Assembly: GCA_009380075.1 (NCBI GenBank)
Contig: WHSO01000016.1
Location: 1 to 56,138, forward strand
Length of the DNA stretch: 56,138 bases
Direction: 5' to 3'
Origin: Alphaproteobacteria bacterium
GTDB lineage: Bacteria > Pseudomonadota > Alphaproteobacteria > SMXQ01
Below are positions 16,425-27,613 of the stretch, piece after piece. Positions within the stretch are counted from its first letter, which is position 1, and every line of letters starts with the position of its first letter. Made by a program: the position numbers and the translations under genes. Under the pieces are notes generated by a model. That model saw nothing but the letters and a program-made list of their open reading frames with translations, had not been told where the DNA came from and made no database searches.

Positions 16425-16486
16425 GGGATCGCGTCTCTACCAACCATGCCCTTATGTTCTTGGCGGACTCGGCGAGGGTCGAGCGT

Positions 16487-16524
16487 GTTCCCGGTCGCGG
16501 GAACTTAACGTGTACTCCTGCGTT
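16487..16524 (+). promoter_or_regulatory. Predicted EcfG-type (general stress) promoter overlapped by a palindrome
   Basis: GGAAC at 16500-16504, a 16-base spacer and CGTT at 16521-16524 match the alphaproteobacterial EcfG sigma consensus GGAAC-N16/17-CGTT. A 7-bp inverted repeat (GTTCCCG 16487-16493, CGGGAAC 16498-16504, loop GTCG) covers the -35 element. The next start codon is at 16716, leaving a leader of about 185 bases. The match is exact, but it is a single site judged by eye. Confidence 0.6.
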
Positions 16525-16715
16525 GTTGGACTTTAAGGGCTGCTTCAATTGTGGGAAGAGTCTAAGGAGGGCGGGCTGATTGACGACTCTGAGCCTGCAA
16601 GTGTTCCTGCAAGTGTTGTGGGGCACGCTGGGGGACGGTAAGTTTTCGCGTCAGGTACTCGGTTAGGAAATTCATCGGCGTGCCGGCGAAGCGAGGCCCA
16701 CCCGGGGAGGAGCGA

Positions 16716-17546
16716 ATGCCGCTTCACATCGCCCTGGCCATCGCGCCGGGCGCGCCGCAAAATCCTTCGGCCCTGGCGGTACGGCTCTGCGATATCTGGC
16801 GGGATCGAGGCCATCGGGTCTCCGTGACTTCAGCCCGGTTCGTGGAAGCGGATTGTGCCCTGCTTCACATCGACACGACGGTGGTCAAGCCGGACCTGGT
16901 CCCCGAGGCTCCTCCCGCGACGCTGTTCCTCAACAAGCGGGTGGTCGATATCTCCAAGCGCCGGGTCAGCCGCAACCTGGTCTCGCCCAGCGACGATTAT
17001 GCCGGCCCGGTCATCGTCAAGACCGATGGCAATTACTACGGGCTGACCCTGACGCCGGAGACCCTCAGCCATAAACTGACAAAAATCCTGCGCAAAGGTG
17101 CTGGACCGAAGACCTGGCGCTACCTGCACATGCTTCCGAAGACTTCCTATCCCATACTCAACACCAAGTCCGAGGTACCTGACTGGGTCTGGCGGCGCGA
17201 CGACCTCGTCGTCGAGCGCTTCATGGCCGAAAGGAAAGGTGACCTTTACGTTCTTCGGATGTGGATTTTCTTCGGAGGGCGGGAATACGGCGTCAAGCTT
17301 TACGGCGATCAGGCGGTCGTAAAACGCGACAACACCGTCCGCTTCGAGTATCTGACCGACGTGCCCCAGGAACTGCGCCGCGAACGGAAGCGGCTGGGCT
17401 TCGACTTCGGAAAATTCGATTATGTCATCGAGAACGGCAAGGCACAGCTTCTGGACGCAAATTCCACGCCAACGATCACCGGTGATTCACCGAGTCTGCT
17501 GAATCTGGCCGACGCGCTGTCGGACATGTTTGCGGGGCGATGCTGA
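16716..17546 (+). CDS. ATP-grasp-like protein A1 (tandem copy 1)
   Basis: A 276-residue cytoplasmic protein with ATP-grasp features. The nucleotide-binding lysine lies in GPVIVKTDGNYYGL, VVERFMAE sits in the hinge position, and the metal-binding acidic/Asn motif is in DFGKFDYVIENG followed by AQLLDANSTPT. The N-terminal part (CDIWRDRGHRVSVTSARF) looks like the usual pre-ATP-grasp Rossmann lobe. The family ligates a carboxylate to an amine or thiol using ATP; the substrate here is unknown. GGGGAGGAG precedes the ATG. It is about 80% identical to 17870-18709. Its TGA overlaps the ATG of a truncated partner gene. A predicted stress-type promoter lies upstream. It is shorter than most RimK-type ligases. 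Confidence 0.8.
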   Translation: MPLHIALAIAPGAPQNPSALAVRLCDIWRDRGHRVSVTSARFVEADCALLHIDTTVVKPDLVPEAPPATLFLNKRVVDISKRRVSRNLVSPSDDYAGPVIVKTDGNYYGLTLTPETLSHKLTKILRKGAGPKTWRYLHMLPKTSYPILNTKSEVPDWVWRRDDLVVERFMAERKGDLYVLRMWIFFGGREYGVKLYGDQAVVKRDNTVRFEYLTDVPQELRRERKRLGFDFGKFDYVIENGKAQLLDANSTPTITGDSPSLLNLADALSDMFAGRC

Positions 17547-17728
17547 TGCCGGTCCTGACACTCGAGGATTTTGCGGCTCTGCATCCGCCCGATACTGCCT
17601 TCGTCCCCTGCAGCAGCCTCAAGGAGCCGGCCTCGGCGAAGGTCGTGCGTGTTTCCGGTCGTGGAAACTTAACGTGTACCTCTTGCGTTCTTCGACTTCG
17701 GAGGTCGTCAATTTTAGGGAGAGGTTAA
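17546..17728 (+). pseudogene. Truncated 5' remnant of ATP-grasp gene B
   Basis: The first 27 codons after the ATG at 17546 encode the same residues as the start of the intact gene at 18709 (MPVLTLEDFAALHPPDTAFV, then PCSSLKE). At about 17627 the sequence switches to the upstream region of repeat unit 2. The frame continues through unrelated codons to a stop at 17726-17728, so a peptide of about 60 residues could still be made. Five of the 27 codons differ from the intact copy and all five changes are synonymous. As in the intact pair, the start overlaps the upstream stop as TGATG. Confidence 0.9.
17651..17689 (+). promoter_or_regulatory. Diverged second copy of the stress-type promoter
   Basis: Counterpart of 16487-16524. 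The dyad is kept as GTTTCCG (17651-17657) and TGGAAAC (17662-17668): a C-G pair has become T-A on both arms and the inner pair is now a G-T wobble. The -35 reads GAAAC rather than GGAAC, followed by a 17-base spacer and CGTT at 17686-17689. It may be weaker than copy 1. Confidence 0.45.
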
Positions 17729-17869
17729 GGCAAGCGTGCTATTTAACGGCCCCGAACCTGCAACCCTTGTGGGGAAGGCCTCGAAACGGTAATTTTTCGC
17801 GTCGGTTAGTCGGTTAGGAAAATCATCGGGGTGTCGGCGTAGTGATGCACCCCCCGGGGGGAACAGCGG

Positions 17870-18709
17870 ATGCCGCTTCACATCGCCCTGGCCGTTGCGC
17901 CGGGCGCGCCACCCAGTCCGTCGGCGTTGGCCATGCGGCTGTGCGACATCTGGAGGGACCGGGGACATCGGATCTCCGTGACCTCGGCCCGGTTCGTGGA
18001 AGCGGACTGCGCTCTCCTTCATATCGACACGACGGTCATCAAGCCGGAGCTGGTTCCCGAGGCCCCTCCTGCAACGCTGTTCCTCAACAGGAAGGTGGTC
18101 GATATCTCCAAGCGCCGGATCAGCCGCAACCTGGTGTTGTCGGCGGACGACTATTCCGGCCCTGTCATCGTCAAGACCAACGGCAACTATTTCGGGCTGA
18201 ACCTGACCCCGGAAAGCCATCGTCACAAGCTGATGAAGGTCCTGCGAAAGGGCGCTGGACCGAAGACCTGGCGCTACCTTCACATGCTTCCGAAGACCGC
18301 CTATCCCATTCTGGACAGCAAGGCCGACGTGCCGGACTGGGTGTGGCGGCGCGACGACCTCGTCGTCGAACGCTTCATGGCGGAAAAGGAGGACGATCTC
18401 TATATTCTGCGGCTCTGGATGTTCCTGGGAAAGCGGGAATACGGCGTGAAGCTTTACGGGCTGCGGCCGGTCGTGAAGAGCGACGACCTCGTCCGCTACG
18501 AGTATCTGACCGAGGTGCCCGAGGAACTGCGCCGGGAGCGGGAACGGCTGGGCTTCGATTTCGGCAAGTTCGACTATGTCCTCGAGAACGGCAAGGCGCA
18601 GCTCCTCGACGCGAATTCCACCCCCACGGTTCACAGCGATTCAAAGCCGTCGCCGAACCTGTTAAATCTGGCCGACGCGCTGTCGGATATGTTTGCGGGG
18701 CGATGCTGA
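17870..18709 (+). CDS. ATP-grasp-like protein A2 (tandem copy 2)
   Basis: A 279-residue paralogue of the 16716-17546 protein with the same motifs: GPVIVKTNGNYFGL for the nucleotide lysine, VVERFMAEK, REYGVKLYG, and DFGKFDYVLENG with AQLLDANSTPT. It differs mainly in the 115-125, 190-215 and 255-262 regions, the last with a three-residue insertion (KPS). It is translationally coupled to the complete ATP-grasp gene B through TGATG, so A2 and B probably act together as a two-enzyme or two-subunit system. Substrate unknown. The upstream region is the diverged second copy of the repeat unit. Confidence 0.8.
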   Translation: MPLHIALAVAPGAPPSPSALAMRLCDIWRDRGHRISVTSARFVEADCALLHIDTTVIKPELVPEAPPATLFLNRKVVDISKRRISRNLVLSADDYSGPVIVKTNGNYFGLNLTPESHRHKLMKVLRKGAGPKTWRYLHMLPKTAYPILDSKADVPDWVWRRDDLVVERFMAEKEDDLYILRLWMFLGKREYGVKLYGLRPVVKSDDLVRYEYLTEVPEELRRERERLGFDFGKFDYVLENGKAQLLDANSTPTVHSDSKPSPNLLNLADALSDMFAGRC

Positions 18710-19896
18710 TGCCGGTCCTGACACTTGAGGATTTTGCGGCCCTGCATCCGCCCGATACCGCCTTCGTCCCTTGCAGCAGCCTCAAGGAAGCCGGGCTGGT
18801 GGTCGAAGAGGAATGGCGGATGGAATCCATTACCGGGACCATGCTGACCTGTCTCGGGCGAATGCCGGCACTTTTGCACCGAAATGCGGCGACGGATGCC
18901 GCGCTGGAGTTCGTCCGGCTGGCCGGCATCGAGCCGCCCTCGAGGCTGGAAACATACGCTTCGGACGACGAGGCGACCAAGCTTGCAAGCCGCCTTGCCG
19001 CCAGGGGGCTCCGGTTTGCGACCATTTACCCGCAGATCGAATCCATTCGCGCGCTTGGGGCGTGTCTTATTACCCCTGAGCTTTATGGCTGGCTCAACGA
19101 CAAGACCAATCTCGAGTTCCTTTGTCCGGCTCCATACCTCCCGAAGCGGGAGATACACAGCCGGGCAGCCGCGGCGCGGCTGACCGCGAGCGGCCTGGAT
19201 TTCCCGTTCTACGTGAAGGGCGCCGTCGCCGGCGCCAACGGCAGCGGCAACGATGTCCGTCTTTGCACCGGGGAAGGGGAATTTCGCGCGGCGCTCGATT
19301 GGTTCAGGGACGCCACGGGTTACCAGGCGTTGATCATCGAGCAGGCAATCCCGTTCACGGCCACCTGGTGTCTGAATTTCGCCATCCTCGACGGAAGCAT
19401 TCGCTGGATCGGCGGCGCCGAACAGCTTTTCGACAGCCCGGGGAAGCAGAGCGGCAACTGCATCGACCCTCAGACGCCGCCCCCGGCCCGCGCGATCGAT
19501 ATGGGGCTTGAAATCTGCGAGGCCGCACAGGCGAAAGGCTACCGGGGAATCGCCGGATTCGACATGTGCGTCGATGCGGAGGGCGGCATCTACTTCTTCG
19601 ATCTGAACTTTCGCCAGGCCGCCTGCACCTGCCTGATCCTTCTCCATCGTGCGCTGGAAGACCCGACCCGGGTCAGCATGACCTGCAATATCACCGTTCC
19701 GGGGCATCTTCCCGACGCGCTCGCGCGCCTGGAAGACCTGGCCCGCGCGCAGAGCTTCATCCCTGTTCGTCTTTATGACGGCAGTGCGTGTACTCTGGGG
19801 GAAGCTCCCAGCGTGGTCACGGGCTTCGTCCGCGGGCACGATCGCGATGCGGCCCAGGCCCTCGTGAAGGATGTGGAGAGCCGGTTGAAAGGCTAG
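18709..19896 (+). CDS. ATP-grasp domain protein B
   Basis: A 395-residue predicted ligase. The N-terminal 120 residues form a pre-ATP-grasp lobe, and LNDKTNLEFLCP marks the entry to the ATP-grasp fold. FPFYVKGAVAGANGSGN supplies the nucleotide lysine and glycine-rich loop, ALIIEQAIPF the hinge, and GIAGFDMCVDAEGGIYFFDL with NFR the metal-binding Asp/Asn segment. Cysteines are frequent in the last third (WCLNF, NCIDP, AACTCLI). The start at 18709 overlaps the A2 stop by one base; an ATG six bases earlier is also in frame. A PglK-like ABC exporter follows 148 bases downstream on the same strand, suggesting the product is a lipid-linked or exported molecule. The substrate is not predictable from sequence. 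Confidence 0.82.
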   Translation: MPVLTLEDFAALHPPDTAFVPCSSLKEAGLVVEEEWRMESITGTMLTCLGRMPALLHRNAATDAALEFVRLAGIEPPSRLETYASDDEATKLASRLAARGLRFATIYPQIESIRALGACLITPELYGWLNDKTNLEFLCPAPYLPKREIHSRAAAARLTASGLDFPFYVKGAVAGANGSGNDVRLCTGEGEFRAALDWFRDATGYQALIIEQAIPFTATWCLNFAILDGSIRWIGGAEQLFDSPGKQSGNCIDPQTPPPARAIDMGLEICEAAQAKGYRGIAGFDMCVDAEGGIYFFDLNFRQAACTCLILLHRALEDPTRVSMTCNITVPGHLPDALARLEDLARAQSFIPVRLYDGSACTLGEAPSVVTGFVRGHDRDAAQALVKDVESRLKG

Positions 19897-20044: not shown

Positions 20045-21820
20045 ATGTCCCCACCGCCACCTCAATACACGACGAACAGGTTCATGAAGTCGTGGAGGCT
20101 TCTGTCCGCGGGCTTCCGGTTGCGCAGCGTGGCGATCTTCTGCCTGACCCTGGTCGGGACGGGGCTGGAGACGCTGGGCATCGGTCTCGTGGTGCCCGCC
20201 ATTGCCCTGATGACCTATGAAAGGATTACCGACAAGTATCCCGATCTCGCTCCCTTGCTGGACGCTCTGGGGAATCCGTCGCAGCCGCGCCTTATCATCT
20301 ACGGCGTGATCGTGCTGCTGGCCATATATGTGATCAAGGCGCTGTATCTCGGGTTTCTGTCCTGGAAGCAGGCGCAGTACATATACGACCTGAAGGCCGA
20401 TATCTCCCAGCGCCTGTTCGAGAGGTACCTGCGCGAGAATTACGAGTTCCACCTCCAGCACAACTCCGGGCACCTCATCCGGAACCTGACGACCGAAGCG
20501 ACGGAACTGGCGAGCCGTTTTCTCTACCCGGCCATGACGATCCTGACGGAGCTGACGGTCCTGATCGCCATCGCGGGCCTGTTGTTATACATACAGCCCG
20601 TCGGCGCGGCGGCGCTGTTCCTCACCACGGGCACAGCGATCTACGGCTTTCAGTATGTGACCCGCCGAAGGCTGCTCGAATGGGGCCGGCAACGGCAAAG
20701 GCACGAGGGCTTTCGCATACAACGGGCGCAGGAGGGCCTGGGAGGCGTCAAGGACATCAAGTTGCTCGGCCGGGAGGAGGATTTCATCGAACAATACAGG
20801 GAGCACAACACGAACGCCTCCCTCGTCGACCGCAAGCGACTCGCGCTGTCGCAACTGCCGCGCTTGTGGCTCGAAACCATTAGTGTCGCGGGGCTCACGG
20901 TGCTGGTCATCGTGATCCTGCTGCGCGACAACTCGACGGCAAACCTCGTTCCGACGATCGGTCTGTTCGCCGCCGCAACCTTCCGGGTCCTGCCTTCCGC
21001 CAACCGGTTGCTGACCGCGCTCCAGTCCGTGCGCTACGCGGCCGCGGTGATCGACCTCATCCACAAGGAGCTGAACGCCGGGTTCGGCGGACGCCCGGCG
21101 GACAAGGGCGAACCGATCCGTTTCGACCGGGAGATGGAATTGCGCGACGTTTCCTACCTCTATCCGAATGCTGCCGGGCCGTCGCTAAGGGCCATTACGC
21201 TCCGCATAGAAAAAGGCGAGAGCATCGGCGTGGTCGGCACCAGTGGTGCCGGTAAGAGCACCCTGGTCGACGTCCTGCTCGGCCTGCTGACGCCGACGTC
21301 GGGCCAGATCCTGGTCGACGGGAAGGACGTGCAGAACGGACTGAGGAACTGGCAGGATCTTTTCGGCTACGTGCCGCAATCTATCTTCCTGACCGACGAC
21401 ACCCTGCGCCGGAATGTCGCCTTCGGCCTGCGTGACGGGGATATCGACGACGAGGCCGTCCGCCGCGCGCTGGATGCCGCGCAGCTTACCGATCTTGTCG
21501 CGTCCCTGCCCGCGGGGATGAGTACACTGGTGGGCGAACGCGGTATTCGCCTTTCGGGTGGGCAGCGCCAGCGCATCGGCATTGCCCGTGCCCTGTACCA
21601 CAATCCCCCGGTGCTGGTGTTCGACGAGGCGACCAGCGCGCTCGACATGGAGACCGAAACGGGAATCATGGAGTCCATTTCGGCGCTGAAGGGCTCGCGC
21701 ACCATGATCATCGTCGCCCACCGCCTGTCCACGGTCGAGAATTGCGACCGTATCTACAGGCTGGAGGAAGGCCGGATCGCCGACGACCCTCCCCTCCCGA
21801 TTCCCGCCCGGAGGGTCTAG
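20045..21820 (+). CDS. ABC transporter, fused permease-ATPase (PglK/MsbA-like flippase)
   Basis: A 591-residue half-transporter. About six membrane helices occupy residues 25-320, including LTLVGTGLETLGIGLVVPAI and LTVLIAIAGLLLYI. The nucleotide-binding domain has GTSGAGKSTL (Walker A), YVPQSIFLTDDT (Q loop), LSGGQRQRIGIARAL (signature), VLVFDEATSALD (Walker B) and VAHRLST (switch His). The sequence around HNSGHLIRNLTTEATELASR and GVKDIKLLGRE resembles PglK-type flippases of lipid-linked oligosaccharides rather than drug exporters. It follows the ATP-grasp A2-B pair, so export or flipping of their product is the simplest reading. An alternative start is the ATG at 20084. Confidence 0.88.
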   Translation: MSPPPPQYTTNRFMKSWRLLSAGFRLRSVAIFCLTLVGTGLETLGIGLVVPAIALMTYERITDKYPDLAPLLDALGNPSQPRLIIYGVIVLLAIYVIKALYLGFLSWKQAQYIYDLKADISQRLFERYLRENYEFHLQHNSGHLIRNLTTEATELASRFLYPAMTILTELTVLIAIAGLLLYIQPVGAAALFLTTGTAIYGFQYVTRRRLLEWGRQRQRHEGFRIQRAQEGLGGVKDIKLLGREEDFIEQYREHNTNASLVDRKRLALSQLPRLWLETISVAGLTVLVIVILLRDNSTANLVPTIGLFAAATFRVLPSANRLLTALQSVRYAAAVIDLIHKELNAGFGGRPADKGEPIRFDREMELRDVSYLYPNAAGPSLRAITLRIEKGESIGVVGTSGAGKSTLVDVLLGLLTPTSGQILVDGKDVQNGLRNWQDLFGYVPQSIFLTDDTLRRNVAFGLRDGDIDDEAVRRALDAAQLTDLVASLPAGMSTLVGERGIRLSGGQRQRIGIARALYHNPPVLVFDEATSALDMETETGIMESISALKGSRTMIIVAHRLSTVENCDRIYRLEEGRIADDPPLPIPARRV

Positions 21821-23497: not shown

Positions 23498-24643
23498 TCA
23501 CTTTCGGGTGGCCCATATCCGGCCACGCGCTTGTCCCTGCCCCGCGGCCTCACCGCTCATTCGGCCAATAACCCCGTGACGGCGATAGAACGCACGGATC
23601 CGGTCGTCGGCGAGCAGCGGCCGATGAACCTGCAGGATCTGGACGTCGGTATATTTGTTGCCCTCGAGAATCCGGAATCCGTCCTCCGTGACCACAACGT
23701 CCCATCCGATATAAGGCAGAAACGGCAGTGAGCGCGCGACGTCGAGGATGGCGTCCGTGACTTCCTGCCAATGGGGGATCATCGTTCCCTCGATCCTCGC
23801 GCCGCTCTCGGGATGGCACACGTGCCATGCCAGGTGGCTTTCATCGGCCGAATAGGATGCCGCCTGCCCCAACCGGCCGGACGTGAGGTCTATGGCGGTC
23901 GTCATGCCGCCACGGCTCCAATTATCCGTGGGCCGCGAGCGTTCGCAGCCGATCCGCAGGATGGTGGCGGCAATGAAGACGCCGTCGTCGTCGCGCATGG
24001 TGACGATCCGGACCGTGTTCGTCGTCGCCGGATACAGCGCCGCGATTGTGGGATGCTGCTGGACGTATTCGCTGACCAGATAGCCTTCGCAGTCCGCTTC
24101 GAGCCGGCGCAGCTCCGTTTCGTCGGCCGCCCTTCCATTGACGCGGATGATTCCGCCATCGTCCGCGTGCCACACCGTGACGCCCCGTCCGCCACCGCCG
24201 CTGACGGGCTTGAGCACGAGATCGCGTTCGCGGTGCAGAAGCTCCGGAAGGCGTAGGCCCGTTGCGCCGCTGCCCTCACCGTTAGCAGCGACGATTCGCC
24301 CCTTGGCCAGGGTCCCGAAAATGTTAGGCAGATAGACGGCGTGGTCTCGCAGAATCTGCGCGAACAGAAGCTTGTCATCGAGGAGCACCCCGTAAGGGTC
24401 GTCGATCATGCACGTCTTCACGACGCGCGCATAGTCGGACAGGTAAAGACGCAGATCGTTATCGCCGAAGCGGTAGATGACCGCCGCCTCGCTCAGGAAG
24501 CCGCGCCGCCACAAGCCTGGGCGCGACGGCCAGGGTATCGCAGCAGGGGATTGGAGTTCCTTCTCCACGAGGGACCACGCGTGTTCGATCAGATGGGCAT
24601 GCCACGCCGCGTGGTGGACGCATTTTCCGAGAAATTGCCTCAT
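23498..24643 (-). CDS. Sugar-transfer-associated ATP-grasp protein
   Basis: A 381-residue protein of the ATP-grasp group found in polysaccharide loci (ATPgrasp_ST type). After an N-terminal helical region, the nucleotide-binding block is RDLVLKPVSGGGGRGVTVW. It is followed by EGYLVSEYVQQHP (hinge), TNTVRIVTMRDDDGVFIAAT and the catalytic end GWDVVVTEDGFRILEGN. The start ATG at 24643 overlaps the stop of the upstream QueC-like gene as ATGA, so the two are translationally coupled. The frame stays open upstream but into the QueC-like gene. The family is thought to ligate amino acids or similar groups to sugars or sugar-linked carboxylates; the exact reaction is not established. A Wzx-like flippase gene is divergent nearby. 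Confidence 0.88.
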   Translation of the reverse strand: MRQFLGKCVHHAAWHAHLIEHAWSLVEKELQSPAAIPWPSRPGLWRRGFLSEAAVIYRFGDNDLRLYLSDYARVVKTCMIDDPYGVLLDDKLLFAQILRDHAVYLPNIFGTLAKGRIVAANGEGSGATGLRLPELLHRERDLVLKPVSGGGGRGVTVWHADDGGIIRVNGRAADETELRRLEADCEGYLVSEYVQQHPTIAALYPATTNTVRIVTMRDDDGVFIAATILRIGCERSRPTDNWSRGGMTTAIDLTSGRLGQAASYSADESHLAWHVCHPESGARIEGTMIPHWQEVTDAILDVARSLPFLPYIGWDVVVTEDGFRILEGNKYTDVQILQVHRPLLADDRIRAFYRRHGVIGRMSGEAAGQGQARGRIWATRK

Positions 24644-25872
24644 CGGCCCGTATTCGGCACGGTGGCCGACGGCGAGGCCGCCAGCCGCCCGCGGTTCCTG
24701 AGCCGGAGCAGCATGCGTCCCGGCGCCGTTGCCCGTACCACGCGTTTGGCCTGCGCCGTGACCTGATGCAGGGATAGGCGTTCCTTCAGGATGATCTCGG
24801 TCGCTTTCAGAACCTCTTTGTCGCCCGCAATTTGCGCCTCTTTCTGCAGGGTAACGTAATGATGGCGGACCTGCGTCGGCACGATCAGCGAATGGATTTC
24901 CCGCACGGGCAGGTGATGCGGGAAGGTCTTGGCACGCGAGAGCGCACCGCACACGTGCAGGGCCATCATCGTGCGCAGGCACTTTTCGCAATGCCCGCAA
25001 TTGATCTCCGACGTGTCGTGATAGCAGACCCGCAAGGTTTCGAGCGCGAGGTCGGAATCGGCAATCAGGCGCACCTTTTCAACCCGGTTGGCCTCGCATC
25101 CATCGTGGGTGATATCGAGATAGCCATCTGACCACAGATGATCGAGCAGCGGTGACGATCCCCACGGCTTCATCTGCGCGTAGGTGTGGGTGGCGGGGAT
25201 GATCAGTTCCCCCACCGTTTGCCGCAAGGCGAGCGCGACCGAGGCCAGAGCGGCCCCGTGCAGGCACTGGCCCCAGAAGTCGCCTTGGAACCGCCTGCCC
25301 CACCTGGCGCGCCGCTTGTCGGCGATCTCGCGTAGATTCGTTTCACAGGTGATGAGTTGCTTTCCGAGTCCCTCCGCGGCCCGAGCGCCATACCTTATTG
25401 CCGCAGACCAGAGAACATCATTGTCGAGGCCGATATCGAAGCCGCGCACGAGCAGCAGGTGGCTCACGCGCGCCTCATGGTTCAGGAGGGAGTACCAGGA
25501 ATCGACCCCGCCAGAAAAACAGCAGGCAACGCCTGTCCCGCTTTGCTGTGCCCCGACGTGATCGAGCTGCGACGCCATGATGGCGACCGGGCTGAGCTCG
25601 TCGTGCCAGCTGCGTAAAATCTGTTGCGCCTTGGTGACATTGGTGACCAGGTCCGCCGAAAGGCCGCCCGGCACGCTCAATGGCTCGCCCTCGAACATGC
25701 AGGGAACCACGAGCCCGGCGGTCACCGCCTCGGCGAGCCCATCGAGCGGCTGCGACAGTCCCCGGAAGCGATACCATAGGACGAGCGAATCCTCCTGTCC
25801 CGATGGACGGATACGAACCCGCGCCGTAGCAGTCCCGTCCCGCCATGAATCGGAGATATCCAGGACATCCAT
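24640..25872 (-). CDS. QueC-like PP-loop ATPase/synthase
   Basis: A 410-residue protein with a PP-loop ATP pyrophosphatase motif, SGGVDS, at residues 120-125 and a four-cysteine site, Cys283-x8-Cys292-x2-Cys295-x2-Cys298 (NCGHCEKCLRT). This is the arrangement of the zinc site in QueC (7-cyano-7-deazaguanine synthase). The first 110 residues are an extra N-terminal domain absent from ordinary QueC, and the C terminus has a 100-residue extension. No other queuosine genes are nearby. It is coupled to a sugar-transfer ATP-grasp gene, so it may activate a carboxylate on a saccharide or small molecule by adenylation. AGGGT precedes the ATG and lies in the first of three 18-bp direct repeats. Confidence 0.82.
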   Translation of the reverse strand: MDVLDISDSWRDGTATARVRIRPSGQEDSLVLWYRFRGLSQPLDGLAEAVTAGLVVPCMFEGEPLSVPGGLSADLVTNVTKAQQILRSWHDELSPVAIMASQLDHVGAQQSGTGVACCFSGGVDSWYSLLNHEARVSHLLLVRGFDIGLDNDVLWSAAIRYGARAAEGLGKQLITCETNLREIADKRRARWGRRFQGDFWGQCLHGAALASVALALRQTVGELIIPATHTYAQMKPWGSSPLLDHLWSDGYLDITHDGCEANRVEKVRLIADSDLALETLRVCYHDTSEINCGHCEKCLRTMMALHVCGALSRAKTFPHHLPVREIHSLIVPTQVRHHYVTLQKEAQIAGDKEVLKATEIILKERLSLHQVTAQAKRVVRATAPGRMLLRLRNRGRLAASPSATVPNTGR

Positions 25873-25952: not shown

Positions 25953-26089
25953 GTGCCTAACGGAAGGGCATCGACAAGGCCAGTGACCAGGCTGTGACGG
26001 GCGACCCGCTCACACGTTGATCACTGGTAGCACCGCCGATACCCGTGACATGTTTGCGAGGTTTCCCGAAGCGGCCACACCCTATCTTC

Positions 26090-27613
26090 ATGTCCGAAAT
26101 ACACGGAAGCGCCGGAGGTCCGGACAAGCACCTGCGAACAGATCATCTGTACCGAGATCTGCAGGGGCGTGCCATACGTGGCGGCGTCGTCACCGTGGCC
26201 TCACAGGCGGTCAAGGTCGTGGCCCAGTTCGCAGCCATCGTCGTCCTGGCACGGCTTCTGGCGCCCCTGGATTTCGGGCTGTTCGCGATGATCGCGGCCT
26301 TTCTCGTCGTGCTCGAGACGGTGAAGGACCTGGGTCTTTCCGCCGCGACGATCCAGCGGCCCGACGTCACGGCCCGACAGGTCAGCACGCTGTTCTGGAT
26401 CAATGTCGCCCTGGCCGTCTTGGTTACGGTCGTGTTCGCCGCCCTCGCCCCCGTGCTCGCCTGGTTTTACGGCGAGCCGGTTCTCGGAGAGATCACCCCG
26501 GTTGTCGCGCTGGGACTGCTGTTCACGGGCCTCGCCTCGCAGCACCTCGCGTTGCTGCGCCGCCAGATGCGCTTCCTGGCCGTGGCGGTGATCATGAACG
26601 GCGCCGACATCGTGGCGCTATTGGCCGCGGTCGTTGCCGCGCTGGCGGGTTGCGGGCTTTGGTCGCTGGTCATCCAGCGCATCGTGTGGGCCTTCGTCAT
26701 CGCGGGCGGGGCGTGGTATGCCTGCGACTGGCGTCCGGGCCGTCCGGGCCCGTTCCGCGAAATCAGGGAGATGCTGGCGTTCGGCGGCAATGCGACGGTG
26801 GCCATGATCATCGGGCGATTCTCGGCGGCCTGCGACAAGGTGCTGCTCGGCTGGTACTGGGGCCCGGTCTCGGTCGGCCTGTTCGATCGGGCCCAGAGGC
26901 TGCTGATCATGCCGATCCAGAATCTCAACGGACCGCTCGCGCCGGTCGCTCTGGCCTCCCTGAGCCGGATGACCGGCGAGCCACAACGCTATCGCGATGC
27001 CTATGTCGCCGCCGCCGAGCGCCTGGCCATGCTGGTCGCCCCAGTGGCCGCGCTGATGGTCGCCGCGGCCGGCCCCGTCATTGCGCTCGTCCTGGGGGAT
27101 CAATGGAGCGAAGCCGCGCCGGTCCTGAGTTGGCTGGGCGTTACCGCCATCTACATGCCGCTGACCTACACGTTGTCCTGGCTCTACCTGAGCCAGGACC
27201 GGACCGGGGAAATGCTGCGCGCGAGCCTCGTCAACAGTGCCCTTACGTTGCCCGCCCTTTTCGCAGGCCTACCCTGGGGTGCGACCGGGGTGGCGATGTC
27301 GTACGCCGTCAGCGGCGTGCTGCTCCGCGTTCCCGTGTTACTTTGGCTAGCGAGCCGCCGGGGGCCCGTCGGGTTGCGGCAGTTCGTTCGCGTCCTCGCC
27401 CTTCCGACCTTGGCTGCGGGCATCGCGACGGGCCTGATATTTGCGCTTCGGGAATCGCCCTATGCCGCGGGCCTGTCGGATATCGCGCTGGCCCTGGTAT
27501 TCGCCGTTATCGCCGGGACGACATGCCTCGCCGTTTATGCGGCGGTGCCCCACGGGCGCACTATTCTCAGGCACACGGCAAGGCTTCCAGCCATGATGAT
27601 GAAGGGCGCGTGA
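26090..27613 (+). CDS. Wzx-like polysaccharide flippase (MOP superfamily)
   Basis: A 507-residue multi-spanning membrane protein. An N-terminal amphipathic segment (LQGRAIRGGVVTVASQAVKV) precedes about 12-14 hydrophobic helices. LARLLAPLDFGLFAM is the hallmark of O-antigen/teichuronic-type flippases, and FSAACDKVLLGWYWGPVSVG followed by LFDRAQRL is conserved in the second half. Such proteins move undecaprenyl-linked oligosaccharides across the inner membrane. The ATG at 26090 is preferred over an upstream in-frame GTG (26045). Divergent from the QueC-like / ATP-grasp pair; the shared region holds the direct repeats. No glycosyltransferase or polymerase gene is in the window, so the sugar is assembled elsewhere. 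Confidence 0.9.
   Translation: MSEIHGSAGGPDKHLRTDHLYRDLQGRAIRGGVVTVASQAVKVVAQFAAIVVLARLLAPLDFGLFAMIAAFLVVLETVKDLGLSAATIQRPDVTARQVSTLFWINVALAVLVTVVFAALAPVLAWFYGEPVLGEITPVVALGLLFTGLASQHLALLRRQMRFLAVAVIMNGADIVALLAAVVAALAGCGLWSLVIQRIVWAFVIAGGAWYACDWRPGRPGPFREIREMLAFGGNATVAMIIGRFSAACDKVLLGWYWGPVSVGLFDRAQRLLIMPIQNLNGPLAPVALASLSRMTGEPQRYRDAYVAAAERLAMLVAPVAALMVAAAGPVIALVLGDQWSEAAPVLSWLGVTAIYMPLTYTLSWLYLSQDRTGEMLRASLVNSALTLPALFAGLPWGATGVAMSYAVSGVLLRVPVLLWLASRRGPVGLRQFVRVLALPTLAAGIATGLIFALRESPYAAGLSDIALALVFAVIAGTTCLAVYAAVPHGRTILRHTARLPAMMMKGA

Follow-up and report, generated by a model that had tools for sequence, protein, structure and literature searches.

The window analysed here is a stretch of 56,138 nucleotides from an alphaproteobacterial contig (WHSO01000016.1). 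At 16464–18797 it carries a tandem repeat built on two genes for ATP-grasp proteins, A and B, with A present twice (A1 and A2), followed by the gene of an ABC exporter. The features of the locus are listed below.

16464–16715, + strand: upstream region of unit 1; its leftmost 59 bases are 88% conserved in unit 2
16716–17546, + strand: A1, RimK-like ATP-grasp protein of an unnamed family, 276 aa
17546–17629, + strand: B stub, 27–28 codons of B; the frame goes on out of frame to 17728
17628–17869, + strand: upstream region of unit 2, homologous to 16464–16715
17870–18709, + strand: A2, RimK-like ATP-grasp protein, 279 aa (model pLDDT 93)
18709–19896, + strand: B, predicted LdmS-like L-amino-acid ligase of the ATP-grasp type, 395 aa; alternative start at 18703
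20045–21820, + strand: PglK/MsbA-type ABC exporter, which also adjoins A-B in the nearest relative (67% identical)

A repeat search revealed direct repeats with a spacing of 1151–1164 bases, delimiting unit 1 (16464 to about 17629) and unit 2 (17628 to about 18797). Each unit opens with some 250 bases of upstream DNA, continues with gene A and takes in the initial 27–28 codons of B; the identity between the units is 78% over the 250 upstream bases, 83% for A and 95% for the B stub, with a longest common exact run of 37 bases. In both units the TGA of A shares one base with the ATG of B (TGATG at 17544 and 18707). Full-length B is found in unit 2 only; the stub in unit 1 leaves the B frame after 27–28 codons and reaches a stop at 17728. 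The first-pass annotation had described a tandem duplication extending from the upstream DNA to about codon 27 of B, with the TGATG overlap in both units, a complete B only in the second, and A proteins about 80% identical (82% in our protein alignment), and all of this was borne out. The gain of a second A likewise holds, but the wording "A subunit" goes too far, as it presupposes an A–B complex. An assembly error is unlikely to account for this layout, because the copies are 17–18% apart and share no long identical run, which a collapsed or expanded repeat would not give. At the thresholds used, these two A genes and the single B are the only ones in the whole genome (3.54 Mb in 162 contigs, 97% complete). 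The units are homologous and head-to-tail, and relatives are single-copy, as in a tandem gene duplication.

The frames of A1 and A2 are both intact. Their dN of 0.10 against a dS of 0.59 (dN/dS about 0.17, NG86) indicates that both are under purifying selection, and they agree at every position that is invariant, or almost so, among 60 family members, confirming the earlier statement that both copies keep all motifs. In a tree of 86 proteins, A1 and A2 cluster with full support with the A protein of a Rhodospirillales MAG (locus L014, 70% identity). Within this cluster A1 and A2 are each other's nearest neighbours, among the few close relatives known, and the single-copy L014 protein falls outside them, so the duplication most likely occurred after the split from L014. 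Polarised amino-acid changes number 19 in A1 and 12 in A2, a difference that is not clear. This slight excess could be read as A1 and the stub being a decaying, functionless copy, which is very improbable given the open frame, the complete set of conserved residues and the low dN/dS of A1. The most divergent stretch comprises codons 181–210, where 11 of 30 are changed (Fisher p = 0.01 before correction for the choice of window), weak evidence that the two proteins may differ in substrate.

Along its entire length, B matches the NCBIfam model NF047900 (L-aspartate–L-methionine ligase LdmS; E = 6e-43). The model is matched by 21 of 21 B proteins, although the score of 147 bits for B of the window lies below the curated equivalog cut-off of 475 bits. 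A profile built from the 21 B proteins matched PDB entry 7r8p with E = 4e-76. The predicted structure of B (pLDDT 93.6) fits 7r8q at Z 44.2 over 382 residues and 2.5 Å; after 7r8p and 7r8q, the next best other protein (ATP-grasp ligases) scored Z 27. Residues K170, E211, D298, N300 and R302 are invariant across the 21 proteins, and the whole-chain fold together with these conserved ATP-grasp residues places B in the LdmS-like ATP-grasp superfamily. The NF047900 match, the 7r8p profile match and the fold together identify B, in terms of descent, as an LdmS-like L-amino-acid ligase whose activity is predicted from its family. Relative to the Staphylococcus enzyme (SAOUHSC_02373, PDB 7r8p/7r8q), B is alike in sequence and fold over the full length and keeps the Lys, Glu and Asp-x-Asn residues, but the two share only 23–24% identity. 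The LdmS relatives in two staphylococcal plasmid records that we inspected are not accompanied by A, whereas B in the window lies in an operon with it.

The first-pass annotation could name neither A nor B. With B now identified as an LdmS homologue, that statement stands for A, which gave no clear match to Pfam, NCBIfam or the sequences of solved structures. At E 0.01, none of 60 A proteins was matched by a RimK model of Pfam or NCBIfam, and the best PDB sequence match of the A profile was AMdnB at E 0.02. PADLOC, a search for defence systems, returned no match for A or B. An AlphaFold model of A2 (pLDDT 93.1) adopts the ATP-grasp fold, and its top structural matches are ATP-grasp enzymes. 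The structure comparison proposed earlier thus assigns A a RimK/LysX-like fold and B that of LdmS (Z 44), with Z scores for A of 15.7 for RimK, 14.9 for LysX/ArgX, 14 for inositol phosphate kinases and 13.4 for glutathione synthetase. In a weak profile alignment, the hinge Glu167 and Asp247-x-Asn249 of A align with Glu211 and Asp298-x-Asn300 of B. Compared with RimK, LysX and ArgX, A has the same fold (Z 14–16) and a comparable Asp-x-Asn near the C-terminus, but the identity is only 9–14%, and A, at about 280 aa, carries DISKRR and GPVxVKTxxN motifs of its own. At the sequence level, the A family is described by none of the libraries searched. Because the fold also resembles inositol phosphate kinases, A need not make peptides.

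The DNA upstream of A1 and A2 had been called a promoter in the earlier annotation. A scan for sigma-70 promoters found none there, and the region is better termed conserved upstream DNA. A candidate EcfG general-stress promoter (GGAAC-N16-CGTT at 16500) was discarded as chance, since the window holds 2 such motifs with 1.0 expected; a search of the same genome for NepR was negative, and as a control it does detect NepR in Caulobacter. An inverted repeat, GTTCCCG-GTCG-CGGGAAC, lies upstream of A1 at 16487–16504 and is possibly an operator or hairpin. Its counterpart in unit 2 (17651–17668) is partly kept: in one pair both bases have changed (C-G to T-A), in another just one. Since the genome holds no more than two copies of the upstream region, a mobile repeat was rejected as the cause of the duplication.

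The stub and B differ at four positions over 27 codons, all of them synonymous. The absence of nonsynonymous change compares with about 15 expected had the stub been neutral since the A1–A2 split (P about 3e-8), and about 6 under A-like constraint (P = 0.002). Differences between the units fall from 18% to 6% at a best break at 17502 (permutation p = 0.026), so that identity to unit 2 reaches about 94–95% in the terminal part of A1 and in the stub, against 82% in the remainder of A. The stub is too similar to B to be a neutral relic as old as the A1–A2 split, pointing to recent truncation or gene conversion. The locus had been presented as a clear record of operon history; the duplication stands, but the record is murkier than that wording suggests.

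The pattern would be explained by recent truncation of B1, by gene conversion from unit 2, or by replacement of the A1 body with related foreign DNA. Under the last, a recent tandem copy of A2-B would have had the body of its first A swapped for DNA of a relative about 18% diverged, making A1 and the stub partly xenologous. We regard such a history as rather unlikely: it accommodates the identity tract beginning at 17502 and the lack of nonsynonymous change in the stub, but an old duplication with gene conversion, or a recent cut in B1, would leave a very similar pattern, and among the few close sequences known A1 and A2 are mutually nearest. L014, the nearest relative, carries A and B once each ahead of the same ABC exporter, which makes an A-B-exporter unit in single copy the most likely ancestral state. 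The bases common to the duplication junction are few (GCCGG versus GGCGG), as would be expected for illegitimate recombination. On the history we favour, duplication probably began at a few bases shared by B codon 28 and a point upstream of the operon. Gene conversion would later have homogenised the 3' part of A1, with the stub, to A2-B; alternatively, B1 would have been truncated only recently.

A scan for A with one genome per species yielded 79 loci. B follows A directly on the same strand in 20 of these, further to the window, and the two genes are divergent in one. Judged by record names, the carriers of A-B belong to the Alpha-, Beta- and Gammaproteobacteria, Thermodesulfobacteriota, Myxococcota, Verrucomicrobiota and Actinomycetota. 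The earlier suggestion to look in relatives for single A-B operons was thereby answered with about 20 other species in several phyla, L014 being the nearest, and in a sample of 398 genomes both carriers of B also have A adjacent. A tandem A pair with B was seen only in the window among the A-B loci found; tandem A genes without B occur at L037, L062 and L064. Nine other searched genomes of the order lack A, indicating a patchy operon. Carriage by viruses or plasmids was rejected, as viral contigs and plasmids held no relatives of A at the thresholds used. No third gene is common to most A-B loci, and an ABC exporter follows A-B only in the window and in L014. Some pairs nevertheless have other ligases or a dipeptidase close by, which is suggestive of peptide synthesis: at L017 (4622–9811) the gene immediately before A encodes a Mur-type ligase similar to the C-terminal part of cyanophycin synthetase, at L024 an M19 membrane dipeptidase lies near the pair, and at L039 a TupA-like ATP-grasp. 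A second, distant A was also noted on the opposite strand after A-B at L017.

We give a probability of about 0.5 to the reading that A-B is a conserved two-ligase ATP-grasp operon, with A duplicated in tandem together with its upstream region, in which B makes a dipeptide, A extends it and the product is exported. By analogy with its family, B, like LdmS, would convert one amino acid to an acyl phosphate and couple it with another. A, resembling RimK and glutathione synthetase, would then link the dipeptide to a further amino acid, another group or a small acceptor, and the neighbouring ABC exporter would carry the product out of the cell, export being suggested by the exporter gene beside A-B in both the window and L014. 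A1 and A2 may add different substrates, or raise the dose of the same step, and the second A could broaden the product range.

Two distinct ATP-grasp ligases act in series in phosphonoalamide biosynthesis, where PnaC makes dipeptides that PnaB joins to phosphonoalanine (PMC11867202). The likeness to A-B is one of pathway logic, and A-B differs in having no identified adjacent phosphonate genes. More tentatively, and with odds somewhat against it, A and B may represent an undescribed class of two-step peptide biosynthesis, patchy in about five phyla, which combines an uncharacterised family of RimK-fold ligases with LdmS-like dipeptide ligases and in which a second, diverging A extends or changes the product.

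Two other functions were weighed against dipeptide synthesis and extension. In one, A and B would put amino acids on a cell-surface glycan or lipid, A acting on the sugar or carrier, with no free peptide formed. Glycosyltransferases near several pairs (L014, L021, L022, L024 and L033), a TupA-like ATP-grasp gene near the pair at L039, and, in the window, the PglK/MsbA-like exporter, a Wzx-type flippase and a sugar-transfer ATP-grasp protein (PF14397) are consistent with this, as is a B-like gene in a polysaccharide cluster on a Gemmobacter plasmid. However, glycan genes are common, none is kept as a neighbour across A-B loci, and the enzyme that B most resembles ligates free amino acids; we consider a glycan or lipid acceptor improbable, if worth bearing in mind. 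Far less credible is a graspetide pair of the microviridin type, with the short frame between the units as precursor peptide. Microviridin loci do carry two paralogous ATP-grasps (PMC8939145), MdnB and MdnC, and AMdnB is the best PDB sequence match of the A profile, but A is unmatched by any graspetide model at E 0.01 and B, being LdmS-like, comes from a different ATP-grasp family. Distant A-B loci have no conserved small frame in common, and with the stub frame being a piece of B, a precursor between the units was rejected; A-B was found without one.

The duplication itself is ordinary molecular evolution, and more interest attaches to the A family and to the conserved association of A with an LdmS-like ligase, which directly follows A in about a quarter of the A loci found, in several phyla. 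The pair forms a compact two-enzyme cassette that lends itself to expression and may yield unknown small peptides independently of a ribosome or NRPS.

Several further arrangements were observed. In the window, the PF14397 gene and an overlapping gene of unknown family occupy 23498–25872 on the − strand, adjoined by the Wzx-type flippase gene at 26045–27613. On the Gemmobacter aquarius plasmid (L105), the LdmS/B-like gene is followed by a GNAT acetyltransferase gene, with no recognisable A. An Alphaproteobacteria MAG-108 locus (L064 / L011) has four members of the A family in some 5 kb, distributed over both strands, and no B. A genes without B often adjoin a conserved gene of 265–290 aa, which suggests a second A-containing cassette; copies lie at L026:5050–5877, L032:6499–7371, L083:7658–8494 and L017:8951–9811, and further ones at L036, L044, L047, L048, L050 and L063. 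Three copies scanned gave no NCBIfam match, and that of L017 weakly matches the methyltransferase BioC.
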